Source: Myxococcota bacterium (GTDB lineage: Bacteria; Myxococcota; B64-G9). Taken from it: 64,000 nucleotides of DNA. The stretch spans positions 62,001 through 126,000 of the forward strand of contig JAKLGA010000004.1 in NCBI GenBank assembly GCA_022710975.1. The letters are read 5' to 3'. Positions 13,962 to 25,750 of this stretch are shown one piece after another; positions within the stretch are counted from its first letter, which is position 1; each line of letters begins with the position of its first letter. The notes beneath the pieces were generated by a model that did not search any database, was not told the origin of the DNA, and saw only the letters and a list, made by a program, of their open reading frames with translations. A program made the position numbers and the translations under genes.

Positions 13962-15509
13962 TCATCTCCCGTGAGTGCCCAGCCAGCGTTTGAGCGCCGT
14001 CCACGACCGGACGACGAGCTCCCGCTCCTCGGCCTCCAGCCGGAGCAGGAGCAGGGCGACCAGGTAGAGGCAGAGGAAGAGCAGCGTGCCGAGCGCCAGG
14101 CGCAGCGGCAGGACCAGCCCGTCGAGCGGCAGGAGGTGCATCACGCCCAGGGACAGCGCTGCGGCCAGGCAGGCCTTGAGGAAGCCCAGGGAGAACGGCT
14201 GCACCCTGTGGATCGCGACGACCTCGATCAGGATGAGGAGCTGGAGCAGGCAGACGGAGGTCAGCGCCGCCAGGCTGGCGCCCAGCATGCCGAGGTTGGG
14301 TAACAGCCACAGCGACAGTCCCACGTTGGTCGCGGCGGCCGCCAGGTTGTTCCCCAGCACCAGGTTGGAGCGCCCGCCCATGGCAACCGCCCAGTTGCTC
14401 AGCCCCAGGGTGCCGTTCACCAGGTGGCGCAGCAGGAACAGGGGAAAGAGCCCGGCCGCCGCCAGAAACTCCCTGGGGAACAGGCGCAGCAGATCGTCCT
14501 GGAAGAGCAGCAGGAAGCCGAACACCGGGAAGCTGAGAAGCGCGACCCAGCGGGTCATGAGCTTCAGGTTGTAGCTCAGGCGCGGCCGGTCGCGCTGGCG
14601 CAGGGCCTCGGCCAGGACCGGGGAGGCCACCGGATCGAAGGCGTAGCGCACGTTGGCCACGACGCGGCTGACGGTCTCCAGGCCGGCGTACACGCCCACC
14701 GACTCCAGGCCGGTGTAGAAGCCGAGCAGGATCATGTCGGCGCGCTGGTGCACGGCGTTGAGGAACTCGGCCAGGCCCATGGGGATGGAGAAGCGCACCA
14801 TGTCCCAGTGCAGCCGCGGCCCGCGGGCCTCCCGCCGGCAGAGCCACTCGCGGGCCGGCACCTCCGGGAAGACCTTCCAGGCCGCCCACACGGCCAGCGT
14901 GGCGGTCAGCACGCTGGCGCTCACCTGGGCCCCGCACAGGCCGGCCAGGGTGGGGGACAGCAGGCCGATCGCCAGGGCCATGACCAGCAGGAGCAGCGGC
15001 TGGGCGAGGCCGCGCACCAGCAGGTTGTAGCGCATCAGCTTGGCGCCCATGGTCGCCGAGATGAGCACCAGCACCAGGGCGGCGAAGGGGATCGAGGGGG
15101 CCAGCAGGCGGATGGCTCCCGCGGAGGTGGGCTGGTTCTGCAGCCGCGCTAGCGGGCCGGCCAGGCAGAACACCAGCAGTGCCAGTCCGAAGCCGCCGAG
15201 CAGGGTCAGCCAGCAGGCCGTGCGCAGGCTGGCGCGCTCGAGCTCGGGCTCGCCGGCCACCCGGTGGGACGCGATGTGGCGCAGGAGGCCCTTGTCCGAG
15301 CCGAGCGGGCTCAGGCGCAGGAACGGCTCCAGAATGCCGTAGCCGAAGCGGTACGTCCCGTAGACGGCCACGCCGAACAGATGGGCCACGACCGGATGGA
15401 AGGCGAATTCCGACAAGCCGGCCAGGATGGTCAGGAAGTTCGTGCCCGCGCCGACCGCGGCGTGGCGTGCGTCCCGGGAGCGGGTGTCCGCGGGCCGATC
15501 GGCGCTCAT
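13962..15509 (-). CDS. MOP-superfamily oligosaccharide flippase (Wzx-like)
   Basis: A 515-residue polytopic membrane protein with about 12-14 hydrophobic helices spread evenly along the chain and short basic loops, the size and layout of Wzx/MurJ-like lipid-linked oligosaccharide flippases. The N-terminal segment (NFLTILAGLSEFAFHPVVAHLFGVAVYGTY) has the family pattern of a first helix followed by an 'LG..YGxY' turn. It would move an undecaprenyl-linked or similar glycolipid across the inner membrane. The start overlaps the radical SAM stop (ATGA), showing translational coupling, and the neighbouring glycosyltransferase remnant supports a surface-glycan role. Substrate is unknown. Confidence 0.75.
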   Translation of the reverse strand: MSADRPADTRSRDARHAAVGAGTNFLTILAGLSEFAFHPVVAHLFGVAVYGTYRFGYGILEPFLRLSPLGSDKGLLRHIASHRVAGEPELERASLRTACWLTLLGGFGLALLVFCLAGPLARLQNQPTSAGAIRLLAPSIPFAALVLVLISATMGAKLMRYNLLVRGLAQPLLLLVMALAIGLLSPTLAGLCGAQVSASVLTATLAVWAAWKVFPEVPAREWLCRREARGPRLHWDMVRFSIPMGLAEFLNAVHQRADMILLGFYTGLESVGVYAGLETVSRVVANVRYAFDPVASPVLAEALRQRDRPRLSYNLKLMTRWVALLSFPVFGFLLLFQDDLLRLFPREFLAAAGLFPLFLLRHLVNGTLGLSNWAVAMGGRSNLVLGNNLAAAATNVGLSLWLLPNLGMLGASLAALTSVCLLQLLILIEVVAIHRVQPFSLGFLKACLAAALSLGVMHLLPLDGLVLPLRLALGTLLFLCLYLVALLLLRLEAEERELVVRSWTALKRWLGTHGR

Positions 15510-16552
15510 GCCGGTTCATCGGTCCCTGCCTGCGAGCCGGGCTGGGGACGCAGCTCGTCCACCTTGCTGTTGTTTCGCACGCATCCTATGGTGCACCAGG
15601 CTGCGCAAGCTTTCGGCTGGTTGAATTGGCGCACCAGATCCGCGTACGTGTAGGTCAGCAGGTCCTTCGAGAACCAGTCCCGCTTCTGGGAGCAGTATTT
15701 CACCTTGCCGAGCTCGTCCACGTAGAGGTAGCGGGAGCCGGCCCGGCACTTGAAGGCTGCGGGTTTACCCGCGAGCATCTTGGGGAGGTACTCGCGAGCC
15801 AGGCGAAACTGGCTCTTTCCTAGGGCCCTGGAGAGGTCGTGGTAGACTGTGCGCTGCTCGTCGCTAAGCTTGATGGCACCGTTCCCGTCGTGGATGAGTC
15901 CTACCCGGGGGATGAAACCCAGCGAGCGGGCAACGCGCAGCACCTCAGTTGCCTCCCGCGGGTCCGTGGAGCCGATGACCGCGTTGAGGGTCACCTTGAA
16001 GGTGGCCTTCTGCGCCAGCAGCTCGAGCTTCCCCTGGAGGTTATCCAGGGTTTTCCTGGTCCGCGCGTTGCACGACACCCCGTCCACGCTGATCTGGAGA
16101 TCGGTCAGGCCGGCTTGGCCCAGCTCCAGGATGCGCTGCTCGTCGAGCAGCAACCCGTTGGTGATGAGCATCCGCTTGACGAAACCGCGAAAGGTGCAGT
16201 GCGCCACGAGCTCCACGACGTCTGGGTGGAGCAGCGGCTCGCCGCCGGTGAATTCGATGGCGAACGTGCCCAGGGAGCGGATCTTGTCCACTCGTGCGCG
16301 GAGCACATCTGTCGGCACCGGGGTGGAGTCGTGGTTGTGCTCGTTGCAGTAGGCGCAAGCCAGGTTGCAGCGGCGGGTGACCACGAGCTGGACCAGGAAG
16401 GGGGAGTAGAGCAGCCTTCGGAAGCCGAACACCTCCGCACCCCTCGAGAAGGGCTTGGCCGCATGTGGCATGGCGTCACTGTGTTCCGAGGCTGGTGATC
16501 CCTGAGCCCTTCTCGCACCTCTCGCCGACGGTGCCTCATTCTGATGGAGCAT
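15506..16552 (-). CDS. Radical SAM/SPASM-type enzyme
   Basis: A 348-residue protein. The radical SAM 4Fe-4S motif CNLACAYC is at residues 62-69, followed by FTGGEPLLHPD (SAM-binding GGE) and ISVDGV. The C-terminal part carries further cysteines (CRAGSRYLYVDELGKVKYC and CAAWCTIGC) in a SPASM/Twitch-like arrangement, so it probably holds an auxiliary cluster. ATG 16552 has a strong GGAGAGGAGGG site and overlaps the stop of the LolA-like gene by 17 bp. SPASM enzymes modify peptides, sugars or cofactors; here the flippase directly downstream and the envelope genes upstream suggest modification of a surface molecule, but no precursor peptide is visible. Confidence 0.8.
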   Translation of the reverse strand: MLHQNEAPSARGARRAQGSPASEHSDAMPHAAKPFSRGAEVFGFRRLLYSPFLVQLVVTRRCNLACAYCNEHNHDSTPVPTDVLRARVDKIRSLGTFAIEFTGGEPLLHPDVVELVAHCTFRGFVKRMLITNGLLLDEQRILELGQAGLTDLQISVDGVSCNARTRKTLDNLQGKLELLAQKATFKVTLNAVIGSTDPREATEVLRVARSLGFIPRVGLIHDGNGAIKLSDEQRTVYHDLSRALGKSQFRLAREYLPKMLAGKPAAFKCRAGSRYLYVDELGKVKYCSQKRDWFSKDLLTYTYADLVRQFNQPKACAAWCTIGCVRNNSKVDELRPQPGSQAGTDEPA

Positions 16553-17372
16553 CGAGCCCTCCTCTCCGTCCGCGCTCCAGATGTTCGGTGGTGAAGAGAT
16601 CATCTTGGATTTCGAGGTCGGTTGTCGCTGACTCAATCACGACGTCGGTACGATGCAGGTTCTGGTTGTTCGTTATGCTCAAGTGTGTCGGCAACCAGAG
16701 GTGTAATCCCGGGTCAATCTCCCTGGGCTCGCTGGCCAGAAGGGTCTTCAGGAGTTTCCCCTGATGGTCGTAGAACTCGACTTTCGTGATGTACTGCATG
16801 TTCTTCCCCACCCAACTCAGGGTCCGGCCGTACCAACTCATGCCGGCGGCTCGTTTGGGGGTCGTCTCGACTACCAATGTCTCGCCCTCGGGCAGTGTCT
16901 CTGTACGAACCACTCTGTGGAGAAAGAGTTCATCGCAGGGGAAGAACAGGTCGACGTAGAATAGGTCGCTGCCGACGATGGAATCCATGAACTCATCGGC
17001 CGCAAGAGGGCGAGCTCGCTGGAAAAGTGGCGAGTAGCTCCAGATGTTCTGCTGGCTCCATTGTTCCTGGATTGCCAGTAGACTGGTGCCCCTCATCTCG
17101 CTTGGAGCGATGAAGGCCAGCAGGCGGCGTTGGTGGATGCCTGCCGAATCGTTCTTGTTGAAGAACACGAACTTCATCGACTTCGTGCCACCGGTCGCAT
17201 CCGTGGTATTCAGCACCCCGTTCGCGCGAAGGTTGGTCGCACGAAAGGCGGGCTGTAACCTCTCGATGAGTGAATTGGGCGGACCCTCAGATTGCGGTGT
17301 TTTCCTGCTATCACACGGCGTCGCGCAGAGGAGCGACACCATCGCTACAATGCCTTTGGTCATTAATGTCAA
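16536..17372 (-). CDS. LolA-like outer-membrane lipoprotein-sorting protein
   Basis: A 278-residue exported protein with a short hydrophobic N-terminus ending in a cysteine (MVSLLCATPCDS), perhaps a lipoprotein signal; a second Met at 17363 could be the start. The body matches the LolA-like domain often encoded beside RND exporters: LLAFIAPSEMRGTSLL, QNIWSYSPLFQRARPLA, a middle 'F..DL' segment, YITKVEFYDHQGKLLKTL and a final set of beta strands. Members bind lipids in a half-barrel and carry cargo across the periplasm. It lies 61 bp after the small lipoprotein gene and overlaps the radical SAM start, so it belongs to the efflux operon. Confidence 0.65.
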   Translation of the reverse strand: MTLMTKGIVAMVSLLCATPCDSRKTPQSEGPPNSLIERLQPAFRATNLRANGVLNTTDATGGTKSMKFVFFNKNDSAGIHQRRLLAFIAPSEMRGTSLLAIQEQWSQQNIWSYSPLFQRARPLAADEFMDSIVGSDLFYVDLFFPCDELFLHRVVRTETLPEGETLVVETTPKRAAGMSWYGRTLSWVGKNMQYITKVEFYDHQGKLLKTLLASEPREIDPGLHLWLPTHLSITNNQNLHRTDVVIESATTDLEIQDDLFTTEHLERGRRGGLDAPSE

Positions 17373-17433: not shown

Positions 17434-17826
17434 TCACAGGCGCGCTCCCCTCTCAGGCTCGAGGATCGGGACAACCCCTTCCTCGCAGAGGAGTGGATTT
17501 CCTCGATTCGCCTCAGAAAGGAAAACTCCCTGGCTGTCGAACTCGAGGACGCGCACGACCCTGGCGCCTAAGCAGTAGACCCATCGCTCTGTCCACAGGC
17601 GGGTGCGCCAGCGAGTGGTCGGCGGCCCCTGCTTGGCGATAGTCGAGCGCTGGTCCGCAGACACGCTGGCAGATAGGTCCACTCCGGGGAGTTGTGCCCA
17701 ACCATCCGGAATGCGGTGGGGCTGACTCACGCAACCCATGGCTGATCCAAGGTTGACCCATAGGCAGGTCGCGAAAATGAGCCCAAGCAGGAATCGCCCT
17801 GGAAGATGCTTCCGATCCTGAATCAC
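17434..17826 (-). CDS. Small putative lipoprotein
   Basis: A 130-residue exported protein. The GTG start at 17826 overlaps the stop codon of the RND-TolC fusion gene (GTGA), so its translation is coupled to the pump. A hydrophobic signal segment (FLLGLIFATCLWVNL) is followed by GSAMGCVS, a plausible lipobox. The mature part has several Trp and Arg residues and two further cysteines (YCLG and LLCEE). No family is recognised. Its position suggests an accessory or periplasmic partner of the pump. Confidence 0.5.
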   Translation of the reverse strand: MIQDRKHLPGRFLLGLIFATCLWVNLGSAMGCVSQPHRIPDGWAQLPGVDLSASVSADQRSTIAKQGPPTTRWRTRLWTERWVYCLGARVVRVLEFDSQGVFLSEANRGNPLLCEEGVVPILEPERGARL

Positions 17827-20800
17827 GGCGCCTCCGTAACTCCCCCTCGGCCGACCGAGCGCAAGTAGGCGAGGCGTTTCAATCCGAAATCGCTTTGAGC
17901 GTCGGTATGCCTGTCGGTCGCCTGCCGATGCTGCACCTGCGCCTCGAGGACCTTGGAGAGCGTCTCCAGTCCGTTCTCATACTTGTCCGACGCCTCGCTG
18001 AGGTTCACTTCGGCCTGCGTCACACTAATCCCCGCGACCTGGTACTCCAACCAGGCCGCATCGAGGGCGTCCCAACTTTTTTGAGCGTCGAGGGCCAAGA
18101 GCTCTTGCGTAGAAGCCAAGCGCTGCTCGGCGATCTCCTCCTCTTCCTCCTGGGCGGCTAGAGAGTGAAGGCCTTCCCAGATTCCCGAGATTGGGATGCT
18201 TGCCATCCCGAACCCCAGCACATTGTTGGTGGCCCCCAGACCAGCCACGTCGTAACGCATCAGGACAGTGCCCACCGAAACCGTGGGTAGCATTTCGCCG
18301 AGCTTGAGCGAGGTCTGCAGGCGCGCGGCCGCGACACCCAACTGCAGCAAGGCTGTCTCGGGCCGGCGCTCAACAGCGGCCAAACGCTCGTCGGCGAGCG
18401 CGGCCGGGTCTTCAACCGCGGCAAGAGTGTCTGTGAGTATCAGGTGGGTCCCCTTGGGCAGCCTCAAGTGGCGGCGCAGATCCTCCGTGGCCAGCGCAAT
18501 GCCGTTCTCGAGTCGGCGCCGATCCACCTCGAGCTGGCGGCGCTGAAGGGCGACCTTCAGCTCGTCATTGCGGGTGATCAGGCCGGAGGCGACCGCGTCG
18601 CGGGCCTCCCGCTCAAGCGCTTCCAGCAGGGAATCGGCGCTGTCGAGAGTCTTCAGCTTCTCGTTTAGGCTCACGATGCGCCAGTACTTCTCTTCGCTCT
18701 CGGCCACAGCGTCGCGGCGGGCGAGTCCGACCTTCCTCCGGGCCGCCTCTACGCCGAGCTCCGCCAGGCGGTTGCCGTTCAGGATGCGTCCGCCGGCGTA
18801 GACAGGCTGGACCGCGGTCAAGCTGAGCATGTAGGCGTTGTCAGCGGCCTCAATGCTTCCTGGCGGCATGTAGGCGAACTCTGTAGCAGTAGGGAGGTTC
18901 GCGGGGTTTCCGTCGTACACCGGAAGATTGCCACCCGGGGTGTGGATCTTCAGCAGCGAGTCCAGAGCGGCGAAACCGGCGATCGAGGCGGAGACCTGGG
19001 GAAAGTATTTTGTGAACACCGCTGCGCTGGTCTCGCGGGCGGCCTCCACCACGTGCTCCGCCTCGCGCACCTGGGCGTTCTGCTCGACAGTGAGGGTACG
19101 ACATTCCTCCAGCGAAAGGCGCATGCCCTGCGCCTGAGCGAGAGCGGGGCTCAGCACCAGGAAAAGGAGGAGGCCGACCGCCGCGGTCCTTCCTCCCAGA
19201 GGCTGGCTGGCCTTGGTGTCCTTCTCTGTGCCCGCTACCAATGAGTAGGCCACGGGCAGGACGAACAGGGTCAGAAGCATGCCGAACAGCAGTCCGAAGC
19301 AAGTCACCGTTCCAAGAGGTCCCCACAACGTCGACCGGCTGAGGATCATGGGCACGACCCCGACCGCGGCAGCCATTGAGGTCAGGTAGATGGGTCGCAT
19401 GCGCCGCTTGCCCGCGGCCAGCCCAGCCTCCCTGGCCCCCAACCCCTGGTCGCGCCGCAGTTCCTCTGCGTAGGTGACCAGGATGATGCCGTTACGCACG
19501 ACAATGCCCAGCAGACCGATGATGCCAATGAAGGCGGTCAGCCCGAACGGATAGCCCATGATCAATAGGCCCAAGAACGCACCTGGCAGGCTCAATGGCA
19601 TCGCCAGCATGGTGACCAGCACCCGACGGAAGCGCTGGAACTGACACAGCAGCACGAGAAAAATGAGCACGATGCTTACGACCATCGAGATCGTCATGGG
19701 AGTGAAGACTCTCCCGGCCAGTTCCTTCTGGCCGCCATACTCGAGCCGCACCCCTGCCAGGTCGAGGGTCTTCACGTACTGCTCGACCTGTTTCTGCACT
19801 TCAGACGCCAGCACCCCCATGCCAACGTCCATGCTCACAGTCAGCGTCTGAACCCCGTTGCGCCGGACGATGGCACCTTCGTTCCAGGCAGGACGCAAAG
19901 ACGCGAGCTGTTCCAGAGGCACCGCAACCGCCGTGACCGCCGACGAGACGTACTGCTGGCTCAATCCCTCGATGCTGGTCGCGGCTTCCGAAACGTCCTG
20001 CAACAGTATGCGTATCGGGTACTCGTCCTCCCAGAGGGTGCCTACCGGAAAACCCTGCGAGCCCAGAGCCAGCGACATCTGCAGCATCGCTGGCGGAATG
20101 CCCAGCCGGGCGCATGCGTCCGCGTCAGGCACCACGTCGATGGTCGGCAGCGCGTCCTCGTAGTCGTCGCGGACCCATGTGGTTCCCGGGATCGATTGCG
20201 CATGGACCTTGATCTTAGCCGCAATGTCCTTGAGCGCCGCGAGGTCCGCCCCCGACAGGCGAACTTCGATGGGATTACCGAGGCTCAGCTCCAGTTGCCT
20301 CCACTGCACCCAGGCCTCGGGGAAGGCTCCGCTCAGCCGTGTCTGGGAGTCACGCAACACCTCCACGGTCGCCTCCGCGTCCACGGTGTTGACCAGCAGT
20401 TGGCCGTAGTTTCGAGCCGGCATATGGGGCGCATAGGCCGTATGGAATCGCGGCGAGCTCTGCCCTACGAAGGCGGTGACATTCATCACTCGCTTGTCAC
20501 CAAGCAGTTCCGCTTCCAGGCGACGGATGACAGCGTCGGTCTGCTTCAGGCTGCGCCCGTTGGGCAGGTAGACTTCCACTGCGAACTGGTTCCGATCCAC
20601 CTTGGGGAACATCTGCTGCGGTAGAGCGGCGGCGATGACCAGCGCCACCAGCACCGCGGCGGCGCCCACCACCAACGTGAGCCCGCGGTGACGGAAGGCA
20701 GCTTCGAGGCTGCGATCGAATACTCCCTGTAGGCGGTCCAATATCGAGCGACGCTTTCCGTTGCGGTGCAGGCCCCGCCGAATGAATTGCCAGTTCATGA

Positions 20801-22271
20801 CTGGGATCAGCAGCACTGCGACCGCCATGCTGGTCACCAGTGCCACCGCGATGGTCAGCGGCAAGCTGCCCACGAAGTCCCCCTCCATTCCGGTGAGGAA
20901 CAGCGTCAGAGGGGAGTAGGAGAGGATGATGGCGACGGTGGCAGTGAAGACCGGCACCGCCAATTCGCGTGCGCTCTTCCAGGCGGCGGTCCAGGGGTCC
21001 AGGCCCCGGTCAAGCTTGTCCACGTGGTCGTCGATGACCACGATGGCGTTGTCCACCACCATGCCCAATACCACGATGAGCCCGGCCAGCGAGACGGTCT
21101 GGAGCTGGACCCCGAGGGCATTGAGCACACCGAGCGTGATGGCGATGGACAGCGGAATGCTGATGGCGGCCACCGCTGCCACCCGGACAGGCAGCAGCAG
21201 CATGGTCACCAGGATCACGGCGGCGATGGCCAGGCCGAAATCGCGCAGAAAATGCCCCACTGATGTCCGAACCACCTGGGGCTGGTCGGCGACTCGCGTG
21301 ATGGTTACTCCCGGGGGCAGCTCGCGGCGGGTTGCATCAAGGGCACGTTCGACCTGATCCCCAAAGCGTGTGATGTCGTGACCCGACTGCATCTCGATGG
21401 ACAGCACCATGGCGGTCTTGCCGTCGAAACGCACGTAGGCATCGTCGTGTCCGTATTCCCGCTTGATCTCCGCCACGTCCTTCAATCGAACGAGCTGACC
21501 GGTCGGAATGGACAGCAGGATGGTGTCGCCAAGCTCGGCCTCGGAGCGCAGTGCCTTGCTGACGTGAATCGGAATCTCCAGCTCGTCCGTGTCCAGACGG
21601 GCCGGAGCAGGTGCTCCACCGAGCCCTTGCAGGGAAGCCCACACCATGGCTGGGCGGATTCCGTAGCGTGCAAGACGCTCTCGTGAGATAGTGACGCGAA
21701 TGACCTCCTGCTGGGCGCCATAGGTGCGCAGCTTGGAGGTGGCATCGATTCTTCTCAGATGGGACTGAAGCACCTCGATGTACTTCTCGAGATCCCTGGG
21801 GCTCCGCCCCTCGGCCACCACAGTGAAGAGCAGGGCGCTGGTGTCACCGAAGTCATTGTTACCGATGAGCGCCAGCACCTGTCCCGGAAGTTTCTGTGCC
21901 TTCAGCTCGTTCAGGCCGTGGCGGAGCTTGGCCCAGAAGGCAGGGGCCTCCTGCCCCTTGATCTCGCCACCCAACTCGACGAACACCACCACCTGGCCTT
22001 CCTTCGAGACAGAGTAGGTCTTCTTCTTGTCGACCTCGTTGAAGCTGAACAGGAAGTCCTCGACCGGCCGGGTGAGCCGCTCCTCAACTTCCTTCGAGGT
22101 GGCGCCGGGCATCACCCCCACGACGATCCCCTGGCGAATGGTGAAGTCAGGAAACTCCTGCCGTTGCATTGTCATGAGGGAATAGCCACCGAACCCGACC
22201 AGAATCGCGCAAATAGTGACGACGATTCGCCACTGCTCCATCCCGCGCTCGATGATGCTCTTGGATTGCAT
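17823..22271 (-). CDS. RND efflux permease fused to a TolC-like outer-membrane factor
   Basis: A 1482-residue fusion. Residues 1 to about 1010 are an AcrB/CusA-type RND pump: an N-terminal helix, large periplasmic loops, a helix block with VDNAIVVIDDHVDKLDRG (the RND motif with acidic residues for proton transfer), a second periplasmic half, and final helices ending near VAYSLVAG. After a short linker comes a hydrophobic segment ending SPALAQA-QG (about residues 1028-1046) that looks exactly like a Sec signal peptide, then about 435 residues of TolC/OMF sequence (LSLEECRTLTVEQNAQVREAE, later YENGLETLSKVLEAQVQ and DAQSDF). ATG 22271 is four bases after the adaptor gene. Signal peptidase could release the outer-membrane part from the pump. 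A lost stop codon between two genes is the alternative. Confidence 0.85.
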   Translation of the reverse strand: MQSKSIIERGMEQWRIVVTICAILVGFGGYSLMTMQRQEFPDFTIRQGIVVGVMPGATSKEVEERLTRPVEDFLFSFNEVDKKKTYSVSKEGQVVVFVELGGEIKGQEAPAFWAKLRHGLNELKAQKLPGQVLALIGNNDFGDTSALLFTVVAEGRSPRDLEKYIEVLQSHLRRIDATSKLRTYGAQQEVIRVTISRERLARYGIRPAMVWASLQGLGGAPAPARLDTDELEIPIHVSKALRSEAELGDTILLSIPTGQLVRLKDVAEIKREYGHDDAYVRFDGKTAMVLSIEMQSGHDITRFGDQVERALDATRRELPPGVTITRVADQPQVVRTSVGHFLRDFGLAIAAVILVTMLLLPVRVAAVAAISIPLSIAITLGVLNALGVQLQTVSLAGLIVVLGMVVDNAIVVIDDHVDKLDRGLDPWTAAWKSARELAVPVFTATVAIILSYSPLTLFLTGMEGDFVGSLPLTIAVALVTSMAVAVLLIPVMNWQFIRRGLHRNGKRRSILDRLQGVFDRSLEAAFRHRGLTLVVGAAAVLVALVIAAALPQQMFPKVDRNQFAVEVYLPNGRSLKQTDAVIRRLEAELLGDKRVMNVTAFVGQSSPRFHTAYAPHMPARNYGQLLVNTVDAEATVEVLRDSQTRLSGAFPEAWVQWRQLELSLGNPIEVRLSGADLAALKDIAAKIKVHAQSIPGTTWVRDDYEDALPTIDVVPDADACARLGIPPAMLQMSLALGSQGFPVGTLWEDEYPIRILLQDVSEAATSIEGLSQQYVSSAVTAVAVPLEQLASLRPAWNEGAIVRRNGVQTLTVSMDVGMGVLASEVQKQVEQYVKTLDLAGVRLEYGGQKELAGRVFTPMTISMVVSIVLIFLVLLCQFQRFRRVLVTMLAMPLSLPGAFLGLLIMGYPFGLTAFIGIIGLLGIVVRNGIILVTYAEELRRDQGLGAREAGLAAGKRRMRPIYLTSMAAAVGVVPMILSRSTLWGPLGTVTCFGLLFGMLLTLFVLPVAYSLVAGTEKDTKASQPLGGRTAAVGLLLFLVLSPALAQAQGMRLSLEECRTLTVEQNAQVREAEHVVEAARETSAAVFTKYFPQVSASIAGFAALDSLLKIHTPGGNLPVYDGNPANLPTATEFAYMPPGSIEAADNAYMLSLTAVQPVYAGGRILNGNRLAELGVEAARRKVGLARRDAVAESEEKYWRIVSLNEKLKTLDSADSLLEALEREARDAVASGLITRNDELKVALQRRQLEVDRRRLENGIALATEDLRRHLRLPKGTHLILTDTLAAVEDPAALADERLAAVERRPETALLQLGVAAARLQTSLKLGEMLPTVSVGTVLMRYDVAGLGATNNVLGFGMASIPISGIWEGLHSLAAQEEEEEIAEQRLASTQELLALDAQKSWDALDAAWLEYQVAGISVTQAEVNLSEASDKYENGLETLSKVLEAQVQHRQATDRHTDAQSDFGLKRLAYLRSVGRGGVTEAP

Positions 22272-22275
22272 GCGC

Positions 22276-23331
22276 CTAGTCCGCCTTCGAGGGTTGGCCC
22301 GCGAGGCGCACCGAAAGCCCGTTGGACAGCATGGGGGTGCCCGAAGTGACGACCCACTCTCCTGCGGTGACCCCCTTCGAAACTGCCGTCCCTTCACCCA
22401 CGAAGCCCACGATCTCGACCCGCCGGCGCTCCAGTCGCTGGTCGTCGGACACGACGAAGACGCATGGTTTGCCCTGCTCATCGACACGGACCGCCTCGGG
22501 TGGCACTACCAGGCTGGCCGCACCACGCTCGACGCGCAGGCGCACGTCCACTACCATGCCCACCCTGAGTTCGCCCTCGGGGTTGGGGATGGCGGCCTTG
22601 ATCTCATAGGTTCGGGTCAACGGATCCGCCATTACCCCGAGGTCGCGAACCGTTGCTTCGTAGCTCTTGCCGAGCGCTGCCACGATCACTCGCACCGGAT
22701 CGCCTCGATGTACCCGCGCGATCTGGGTCTCGGGCACCGGAGCGGTGGCTAGCATGGTCTTGGTCTGCACGATCAGGAAGGCTGGCAGGCCCGGGGTAGC
22801 CGACATGCCCGGCTCTGCGGTGCGCCGGGCCACGATGCCCGCCTCCGGGGCGCGCAGCACGGTGTCCGCGAGGTTTTTCTGGGCGATGGAAAGGGCCAGT
22901 CGCGCCTGCTGCAGGCCCGCCTCCATCTCGACCCACTTGACCTCGGGCAGGGTCTTGTTGCGGTGCATGGGCAGAAGACGCCGGTAGGCATCCTCGGCCT
23001 GATCGGCCTTGGCTTGCGCCATGCCCATGGTGTCCCTGTAGATGCTCGGGTAGAGCCGCGCCAGAGGTTGGCCTCGAGTGACTGCTTCGCCTTCCTGGAC
23101 TAGCACCTGCCCGACGGTGCCAATTGTGGAGAAGCTCAAGGCGATTGTGCGTTCAGCCTCGAGGGTTCCGCTCAGGTGTAACTCGCGGGAGGCATCGGAC
23201 AGCGCCACCTCGGCGACTTTGACCGTGGGCGGCGGGAGGGGCAGGGGAGAGGGTTGCTCGCAGGCCACGAAAGAAGCCCCCAGCATCAGCCAGGAAATTG
23301 TCCAAGCGGAGTTTGCTTGCCAGAATCTCAT
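22276..23331 (-). CDS. RND periplasmic adaptor (membrane fusion) lipoprotein
   Basis: A 351-residue adaptor. ATG 23331 follows GGAGG and begins a signal with lipobox-like GASFVAC. The typical order is present: a first beta strand (VKVAEVALSD), a biotinyl-lipoyl half (GTVGQVLVQEGEAVTRGQPLARLY), an alpha-helical hairpin (about residues 105-160), the second lipoyl half (LRAPEAGIVARRTAEPG), a beta barrel and a membrane-proximal domain ending GEWVVTSGTPMLSNGLSVRL. It links the inner-membrane pump to the outer-membrane channel encoded by the next gene. It is the first gene downstream of a sigma54-type promoter and two operator dyads. Confidence 0.85.
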   Translation of the reverse strand: MRFWQANSAWTISWLMLGASFVACEQPSPLPLPPPTVKVAEVALSDASRELHLSGTLEAERTIALSFSTIGTVGQVLVQEGEAVTRGQPLARLYPSIYRDTMGMAQAKADQAEDAYRRLLPMHRNKTLPEVKWVEMEAGLQQARLALSIAQKNLADTVLRAPEAGIVARRTAEPGMSATPGLPAFLIVQTKTMLATAPVPETQIARVHRGDPVRVIVAALGKSYEATVRDLGVMADPLTRTYEIKAAIPNPEGELRVGMVVDVRLRVERGAASLVVPPEAVRVDEQGKPCVFVVSDDQRLERRRVEIVGFVGEGTAVSKGVTAGEWVVTSGTPMLSNGLSVRLAGQPSKAD

Positions 23332-23356
23332 TTGTTGACCTCCGCCGGCAGCCCTA

Positions 23357-23372
23357 AGCACGGACCGCGCCA
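23357..23372 (-). promoter_or_regulatory. Candidate sigma54 (-24/-12) promoter of the efflux operon
   Basis: On the minus strand the sequence reads TGGCGCGGTCCGTGCT. Against the consensus TGGCACGNNNNTTGCW it keeps the invariant GG and GC pairs at the correct 10-bp distance and matches 9 of 11 defined positions. The start of transcription would be near 23346, about 15 bases before the adaptor start codon. The divergent gene encodes a sigma54 activator and two operator dyads lie 117-200 bp upstream, as expected for enhancer binding. Not tested experimentally. Confidence 0.6.
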
Positions 23373-23488
23373 ATCTTCGGACTTGGCTCGTGTTCCCCGC
23401 TGAAGATTACGAAACGCTTATTATTACGATACGTTATGGAATCTGCGGGCGAAGTTTCTCGTCGGGATGCGAACTTCATGTACTACTA

Positions 23489-23506
23489 GATGCTAAATAA
23501 AGCATC
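23489..23506. promoter_or_regulatory. Operator/UAS dyad 1 (GATGCT-N6-AGCATC)
   Basis: A perfect inverted repeat with 6-bp arms GATGCT and AGCATC around an AT-only spacer. An identical-arm dyad lies 51 bp away (centre to centre, about five helical turns). The size, symmetry and position upstream of a -24/-12 promoter fit an enhancer site for the neighbouring activator. Confidence 0.65.
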
Positions 23507-23539
23507 ATGGGGCGAAATATCGTTTGCTGCATCCGTCGA

Positions 23540-23557
23540 GATGCTGTATTTAGCATC
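23540..23557. promoter_or_regulatory. Operator/UAS dyad 2 (GATGCT-N6-AGCATC)
   Basis: The same arms as dyad 1 with a different spacer (gtattt), so the arms are conserved while the spacer is not. The site ends one base before the preferred ATG of the activator gene and takes the place of its ribosome-binding site. Binding there could therefore also repress the activator's own expression. Confidence 0.65.
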
Positions 23558-23558
23558 C

Positions 23559-25136
<1,578 letters not shown>

Positions 25137-25168: not shown

Positions 25169-25750
25169 CTACTTGCCCCTAGCCAGGAAGCCCTCGAGCA
25201 CCATCTGGAGGAGCGCGTCGAGCTGCTCCTTCTTGGCCCTCGGGTTGCGCGTGTACACCGTGCCCTGGTCGAAGCCGTGCAGGCAGTTGCTCAACATCTT
25301 GGCTGCCGCGTCCGGATTAGCCACCGTGAGCTTGCCGTTCGCGTTGCCCTGCCTGAGGACGCTCGCGTAGAGATCCTGCTCGGCCCCGCGGAGGACGGGG
25401 ATCACCTCCCGGGCGATGGGCTCGATGTCGAGCGCGGTCTCCAGGCTCCAGGTCAAGGGCCCGCCCTCGCGCGACAGGAACTCGGCGCGGGCGCGCAGGA
25501 TGGCCCTGAGCTTGGTTGCGGGGTCCGCGGTGTGCTCGGCAGCGCGCTCCAGGGCTGTCATCATCCTCGTCCCCTCGCGCATGATCAGGGCGCGGACCAT
25601 GTCCTGCTTGTTGGCGAAGTAGTGGTAGATGGCGCTCTTGGTGAGCCCGACCCGCTTGCCGACCCCCTCCAGGGTCACCCGGTGGGAGCCCTGCTTGCCG
25701 ATGATGTCCAGGGCCGCATCCAGGATTTGCTCTGCACGGACTTCGCTCAT
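25169..25750 (-). CDS. TetR-family transcriptional regulator
   Basis: A 193-residue protein with the TetR N-terminal DNA-binding domain: ILDAALDIIGKQGSHRVTLEGVGKRVGLTKSAIYHYFANKQDMV, here visible as helix 1, the turn and the recognition helix ending SAIYHYFANK. The C-terminal helical domain would bind a small ligand. It converges on the sigma54 activator gene (33 bp between the stops) and is divergent from the FGE-fold gene at 25928, so either could be a target; its closeness to an efflux operon suggests sensing of a toxic compound. Confidence 0.8.
   Translation of the reverse strand: MSEVRAEQILDAALDIIGKQGSHRVTLEGVGKRVGLTKSAIYHYFANKQDMVRALIMREGTRMMTALERAAEHTADPATKLRAILRARAEFLSREGGPLTWSLETALDIEPIAREVIPVLRGAEQDLYASVLRQGNANGKLTVANPDAAAKMLSNCLHGFDQGTVYTRNPRAKKEQLDALLQMVLEGFLARGK

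Follow-up and report, generated by a model that had tools for sequence, protein, structure and literature searches.

Results

Pump and channel share one open reading frame

The window, i.e. the whole 64,000-nucleotide stretch of a Myxococcota contig that was analysed, harbours a single uninterrupted frame of 1482 codons on the minus strand (22271-17823; ORF list and sequence). It opens with an ATG, and an alternative GTG start would lengthen it to 22487. According to Pfam, a single protein contains both an ACR_tran domain (residues 15-1012, 525.6 bits) and an OEP domain (108.4 bits, in two stretches), i.e. pump half and channel half are encoded together. The features of the locus are the following (a slash within letters marks a predicted cut):

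22276..23373, minus strand: periplasmic adaptor (MFP), a separate gene that ends just upstream of the fused gene (NCBIfam RND_mfp, Pfam HlyD_D23)
19236..22271, minus strand: RND pump half, residues 1-1012, HAE1-type, 12 TM (Pfam ACR_tran, solved-structure matches, TM scan)
19131..19235, minus strand: linker and internal Sec signal peptide, residues 1013-1047, with predicted signal peptidase I site AQA/QG (sequence, alignment with split OMFs, model)
17826..19130, minus strand: TolC-family outer-membrane channel half, residues 1048-1482 (Pfam OEP, Foldseek, identity to split OMFs)
17823..17825, minus strand: stop codon TGA of the fused gene, which shares letters with the GTG start of the following ORF (GTGA; ORF list)
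17434..17826, minus strand: putative lipoprotein ORF, 130 aa, overlapping the stop of the fused gene (ORF list; no Pfam match)

An earlier note, made from the sequence alone, had described this frame as an RND pump fused to a TolC-like channel. The open frame and the presence of both Pfam domains in one protein bear out the 1482-codon fusion, and the coordinates and residue counts that the note gave for both halves are correct. No stop codon occurs near 19200 in the fused frame of the DNA as assembled. Third-position GC is steady at 0.74-0.88 across codons 901-1225, junction included, which indicates that coding is continuous through the junction. A chance frame is excluded, since both halves score well beyond the cut-offs of their families and the frame is conserved in a 62% ortholog.

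The pump half comprises a full ACR_tran domain with twelve TM-like segments in a hydropathy scan. Among the 60 solved chains listed in the pump search, MexK (9xwg/20yy, about 402 bits) and 6vej (383 bits) are the nearest pumps, and none of these chains spans pump and channel. In the alignment of the proton-relay region, TM4 reads VVDNAI with one Asp, where MexK has VDDAI. TM10 reads VVRNGI, with Arg where AcrB has Lys; the corresponding stretch of MexK is MRN.

The channel half shows two OEP repeats (Pfam) and a TolC fold (Foldseek on a moderate-confidence model), and it is 31-40% identical to the adjacent OMFs of split relatives. An AlphaFold model of residues 985-1482, built on an alignment of 4 sequences (mean pLDDT 69, the beta region being of poor quality), displays TM12, a low-confidence linker, a separate signal-peptide helix, and TolC-like long helices and strands. 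The best Foldseek matches of the modelled channel are TolC and its relatives (TolC 1ek9, E 5e-16). The adaptor of the window (RND_mfp, 183.7 bits versus a cut-off of 94.9; HlyD_D23) lies directly upstream on the same strand, and in the fused loci examined the adaptor is likewise a separate upstream gene.

The lipoprotein ORF that follows the fused gene has a 62% paralogue in the same genome (G000:C1:876202-876447), just downstream of another RND gene. More distant copies (L152-L155, L160-L162) come mostly from the same family, and two of them lie beside an RND/MMPL-like frame. The small lipoprotein is possibly an accessory of RND pumps. Downstream of the pump operon and in its orientation lie genes for a LolA-like outer-membrane lipoprotein-sorting protein (16536-17372) and a radical SAM protein (15506-16636). 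A gene for a sigma-54 activator (23490-25136, plus strand) diverges from the adaptor gene, with a gene for a TetR regulator (25169-25750, minus strand) beyond it. As a TetR gene is found directly upstream of the adaptor gene in three other loci (L092, L093, L094), the gene order suggests that the sigma-54 activator may have been inserted between the TetR and adaptor genes.

Fused and split relatives

A search of 58 related genomes revealed a fused, stop-free ortholog in the MAG of Myxococcota bacterium RA.bin128 (locus G042), which is 62% identical over residues 1-1475. Further fused members of the pump clade are encoded on plasmid records of Persicobacter psychrovividus NBRC 101262, Persicobacter sp. 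JZB09, and Gemmatirosa kalamazoonensis KBS708; the records of P. psychrovividus and G. kalamazoonensis are complete and stem from cultured bacteria. A Bacteroidetes MAG (L094) also has the fusion, its frame being cut by the contig end. The P. psychrovividus protein (WP_338399011.1; CDS of 4404 bp, 1467 aa), annotated only as 'efflux RND transporter permease subunit', shares with the window's protein the pump clade, an internal signal peptide leading into an OMF-like domain, and an adaptor gene upstream. However, its OMF half is about 25% identical over 230 aa, and it belongs to another branch of the pump tree.

The same layout occurs in other pump clades, namely at three loci from the window's own family (L052-L054) and two from another genome of the phylum (L055, L056). 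It is also seen in a CzcA-type protein (L098), which has kept a Met at the start of its signal peptide. With the junction and channel of L098 as query, stop-free frames of about 1440-1520 codons were detected in 42 of the 118 sampled Bacteroidota genomes, and the junctions inspected feature a positive stretch, a hydrophobic core, and a small-x-Ala cut site. These CzcA-type RND-TolC long proteins have the one-frame pump-signal peptide-channel layout of the window, but their pumps are of the heavy-metal (HME) type and form a different clade. Other long RND frames in the window's genome (C4, 1676 codons, and C29, 1649 codons; L003, L004) contain no fused channel; what makes them long is open sequence of GC-rich DNA that lies upstream or off-frame. 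The arrangement is not unique: it recurs, and among the CzcA-type pumps of Bacteroidota it is common. The pump-channel fusion is real, has arisen repeatedly across bacteria, and is little noticed rather than unique.

Relatives of the window's gene thus include both fused and split forms. Given the many split relatives, among them pairs that are just one in-frame stop apart, one might suspect that a missed stop or an indel in sequencing or assembly has joined two genes. Such an artefact is, however, most improbable: the RA.bin128 ortholog, independently assembled, is fused alike, the fusion recurs in complete plasmid records, and the codon GC pattern is even through the junction. Moreover, an artefact would hardly be expected to put a linker that stays in frame and aligned where the start region was. 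On the grounds of the fused ortholog, the plasmid records, and the even codon GC, a frameshift or assembly artefact was rejected, and the junction shows no sign of a stop codon or frameshift.

Bacteroidota members of the pump clade are 39-50% identical to the window's pump, mostly about 1030 aa long, and in most cases followed by a separate channel gene. In these split pairs, the stop of the pump gene and the start of the channel gene overlap as ATGA (L093, G231, G420, G358) or GTGA (G316), or the two genes overlap in another frame (G390, G342). In others (G457, G434; Parabacteroides distasonis) the channel lies in the pump's own frame after a stop. A patatin-like phospholipase gene is present in some split operons, where it either follows the channel gene or separates it from the pump gene (L093:7463-8434; L107:4568-5347); at G245 it separates the two. 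None was seen beside the window's fused gene. The P. distasonis genes (WP_121956779.1 / WP_005857439.1) exemplify the split Bacteroidota operons, which share the order adaptor-pump-channel with the window and encode related pumps and channels, but as two genes, the channel having an N-terminal signal peptide (one example from the split channels is MNKVILCIIAAALLSSSTAFA/QRSLSL). These N-terminal signal peptides align with the window's internal one, which therefore represents the N-terminus of a once-separate channel. Together with the split junctions and the 31-40% identity of the channels, this alignment indicates that the fusion joined neighbouring genes and left the signal peptide of the channel where it was.

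In a tree of 23 pumps, the window's protein and that of RA.bin128 are sisters (100/100). The fused proteins of the pump clade do not form one group (AU test, p-AU 1e-46), and the tree requires a minimum of four switches between the fused and the split state. A single ancient fusion common to all fused members of the clade was therefore rejected. Grouping the window, RA.bin128, and the Bacteroidetes MAG is borderline (AU test, p 0.049), and these three may share one fusion. Since the channel halves of the Persicobacter and Gemmatirosa proteins are very distant from the window's, we favour, from the sequence comparisons, separate fusions in Persicobacter and Gemmatirosa. The contig of L093 (JAOZJV010000124.1) is binned as Krumholzibacteriia, and its pump is nested inside Bacteroidota sequences in the tree. 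It may have been misbinned or transferred, and it was given no taxonomic weight.

The junction contains an internal signal peptide

Behind the pump half and a short charged linker, the hydropathy scan reveals a 13th hydrophobic segment (residues 1029-1047). It corresponds to the Sec signal peptide that the earlier note had placed at the junction, with a charged part (EKDTKASQPLGGR), a hydrophobic part (TAAVGLLLFLVLS), and the cleavage site PALAQA/QG. The junction letters LSPALAQA/QGMRLSLEE span residues 1040-1056; the cut is predicted at 1047/1048, with A1045 and A1047 at positions -3 and -1. Signal peptides were called from hydropathy and the A-x-A rule, and cut sites were set by eye. The channel does possess a signal peptide for its export, though an internal one. 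When 20 fused junctions from several RND clades were compared, the residue before the cut placed by eye was Ala in 18 and Gly in two; position -3 is occupied by a small residue, and Gln follows the cut in 15 of 20.

These junctions bear on the fate of the polypeptide. Uncleaved signal anchors are tolerable in bacteria, and as the product is one polypeptide, the hydrophobic stretch could in principle serve as a 13th TM anchor that tethers the channel in a two-membrane chimera. We consider such an uncut chimera improbable. Against it stands the invariably Ala or Gly residue at -1 in all 20 fused proteins, despite widely differing linkers. In addition, the model leaves only about six residues between the helix of the signal peptide and that with which the OMF begins, so that an uncut channel could, given the known dimensions of TolC, hardly reach the outer membrane.

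Alternatively, the channel could also arise from a second, internal translation start within the long frame, the pump not being cleaved. In favour of this, the genes overlap in the ancestral split state, where their translation would be coupled, and L098 has kept a Met where its signal peptide starts. Yet the fused gene of the window has no in-frame ATG, GTG, or TTG between codons 1012 and 1038; only TTG-1011 is present, with a 3-of-6 Shine-Dalgarno match. Internal initiation is therefore unlikely, slightly more so than the uncut chimera.

Discussion

The locus is best explained as an HAE1-type tripartite system in which pump and channel are made as one precursor that is cut by signal peptidase I, giving a 1:1 output (probability about 0.78). 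The mechanism that the earlier note had put forward, a cut by signal peptidase into two subunits in fixed 1:1 synthesis, is thereby supported. Judged from the junction sequences, the cleavage step is strongly suggested; we infer cleavage, 1:1 output, assembly, and efflux function from the features described above. The C-terminus of RND pumps is cytoplasmic. The ribosome would first make the 12-TM pump, its C-terminus ending in the cytoplasm, and the charged linker and Sec signal peptide would next engage the translocon again, forming a 13th hydrophobic segment. Because the pump C-terminus is cytoplasmic, the signal peptide would insert N-in and direct the channel domain to the periplasm, just as an N-terminal one does. 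Signal peptidase I would cut at AQA/QG, and the freed channel would assemble into trimers and enter the outer membrane.

Pump and channel would thereby be produced 1:1, while the adaptor, of which twice as much is needed, has a gene of its own. A 3:6:3 pump:adaptor:channel model is said to dominate the field (PMC4446572). A 1:1 ratio of pump to channel, with the twice-needed adaptor kept apart, fits this model. The fusion probably evolved through loss of a stop codon between adjacent, often overlapping genes. On a broader scale, we lean towards the view that polyproteins processed by signal peptidase serve diderm bacteria, repeatedly and so far unrecognised, to fix the 1:1 ratio of RND pump and channel, with several origins from overlapping gene pairs, and that the channel is possibly delivered beside its own pump.

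By textbook account, subunits that reside in different membranes are separate proteins. If the precursor is cleaved, the fusion would constitute a simple genetic device that sets the ratio of subunits in two membranes; natural before/after pairs for testing this are available among the split and fused relatives. We found no description of a natural RND-OMF fusion in the open-access literature searched, subscription papers lying outside that search; RND reviews therein mention fused adaptors or SecDF, but not a pump-channel fusion. The fused proteins are already in public databases, named simply 'RND permease'. Many such entries hide a channel, so that surveys of efflux systems across genomes count too few channel genes.

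Taken together, the fusion is a recurrent variant of the tripartite RND system that occurs across phyla. MexK (of MexJK) and 6vej, which we take to be TriC, both from Pseudomonas aeruginosa, have the 12-TM RND fold in common with the fused pump, but they are separate proteins, whereas the window's pump carries its channel in fusion. The MexJK and TriC operons are not known to carry a channel gene of their own and borrow OpmH or OprM. A precedent for the proposed processing is fbcH of Bradyrhizobium japonicum, whose cytochrome b/c1 precursor is split at an internal signal peptide. There, too, two subunits of a membrane complex are cut apart as proposed for the window, but the fbcH products belong to a respiratory complex and both reside in the inner membrane, while the window encodes a pump together with an outer-membrane channel.
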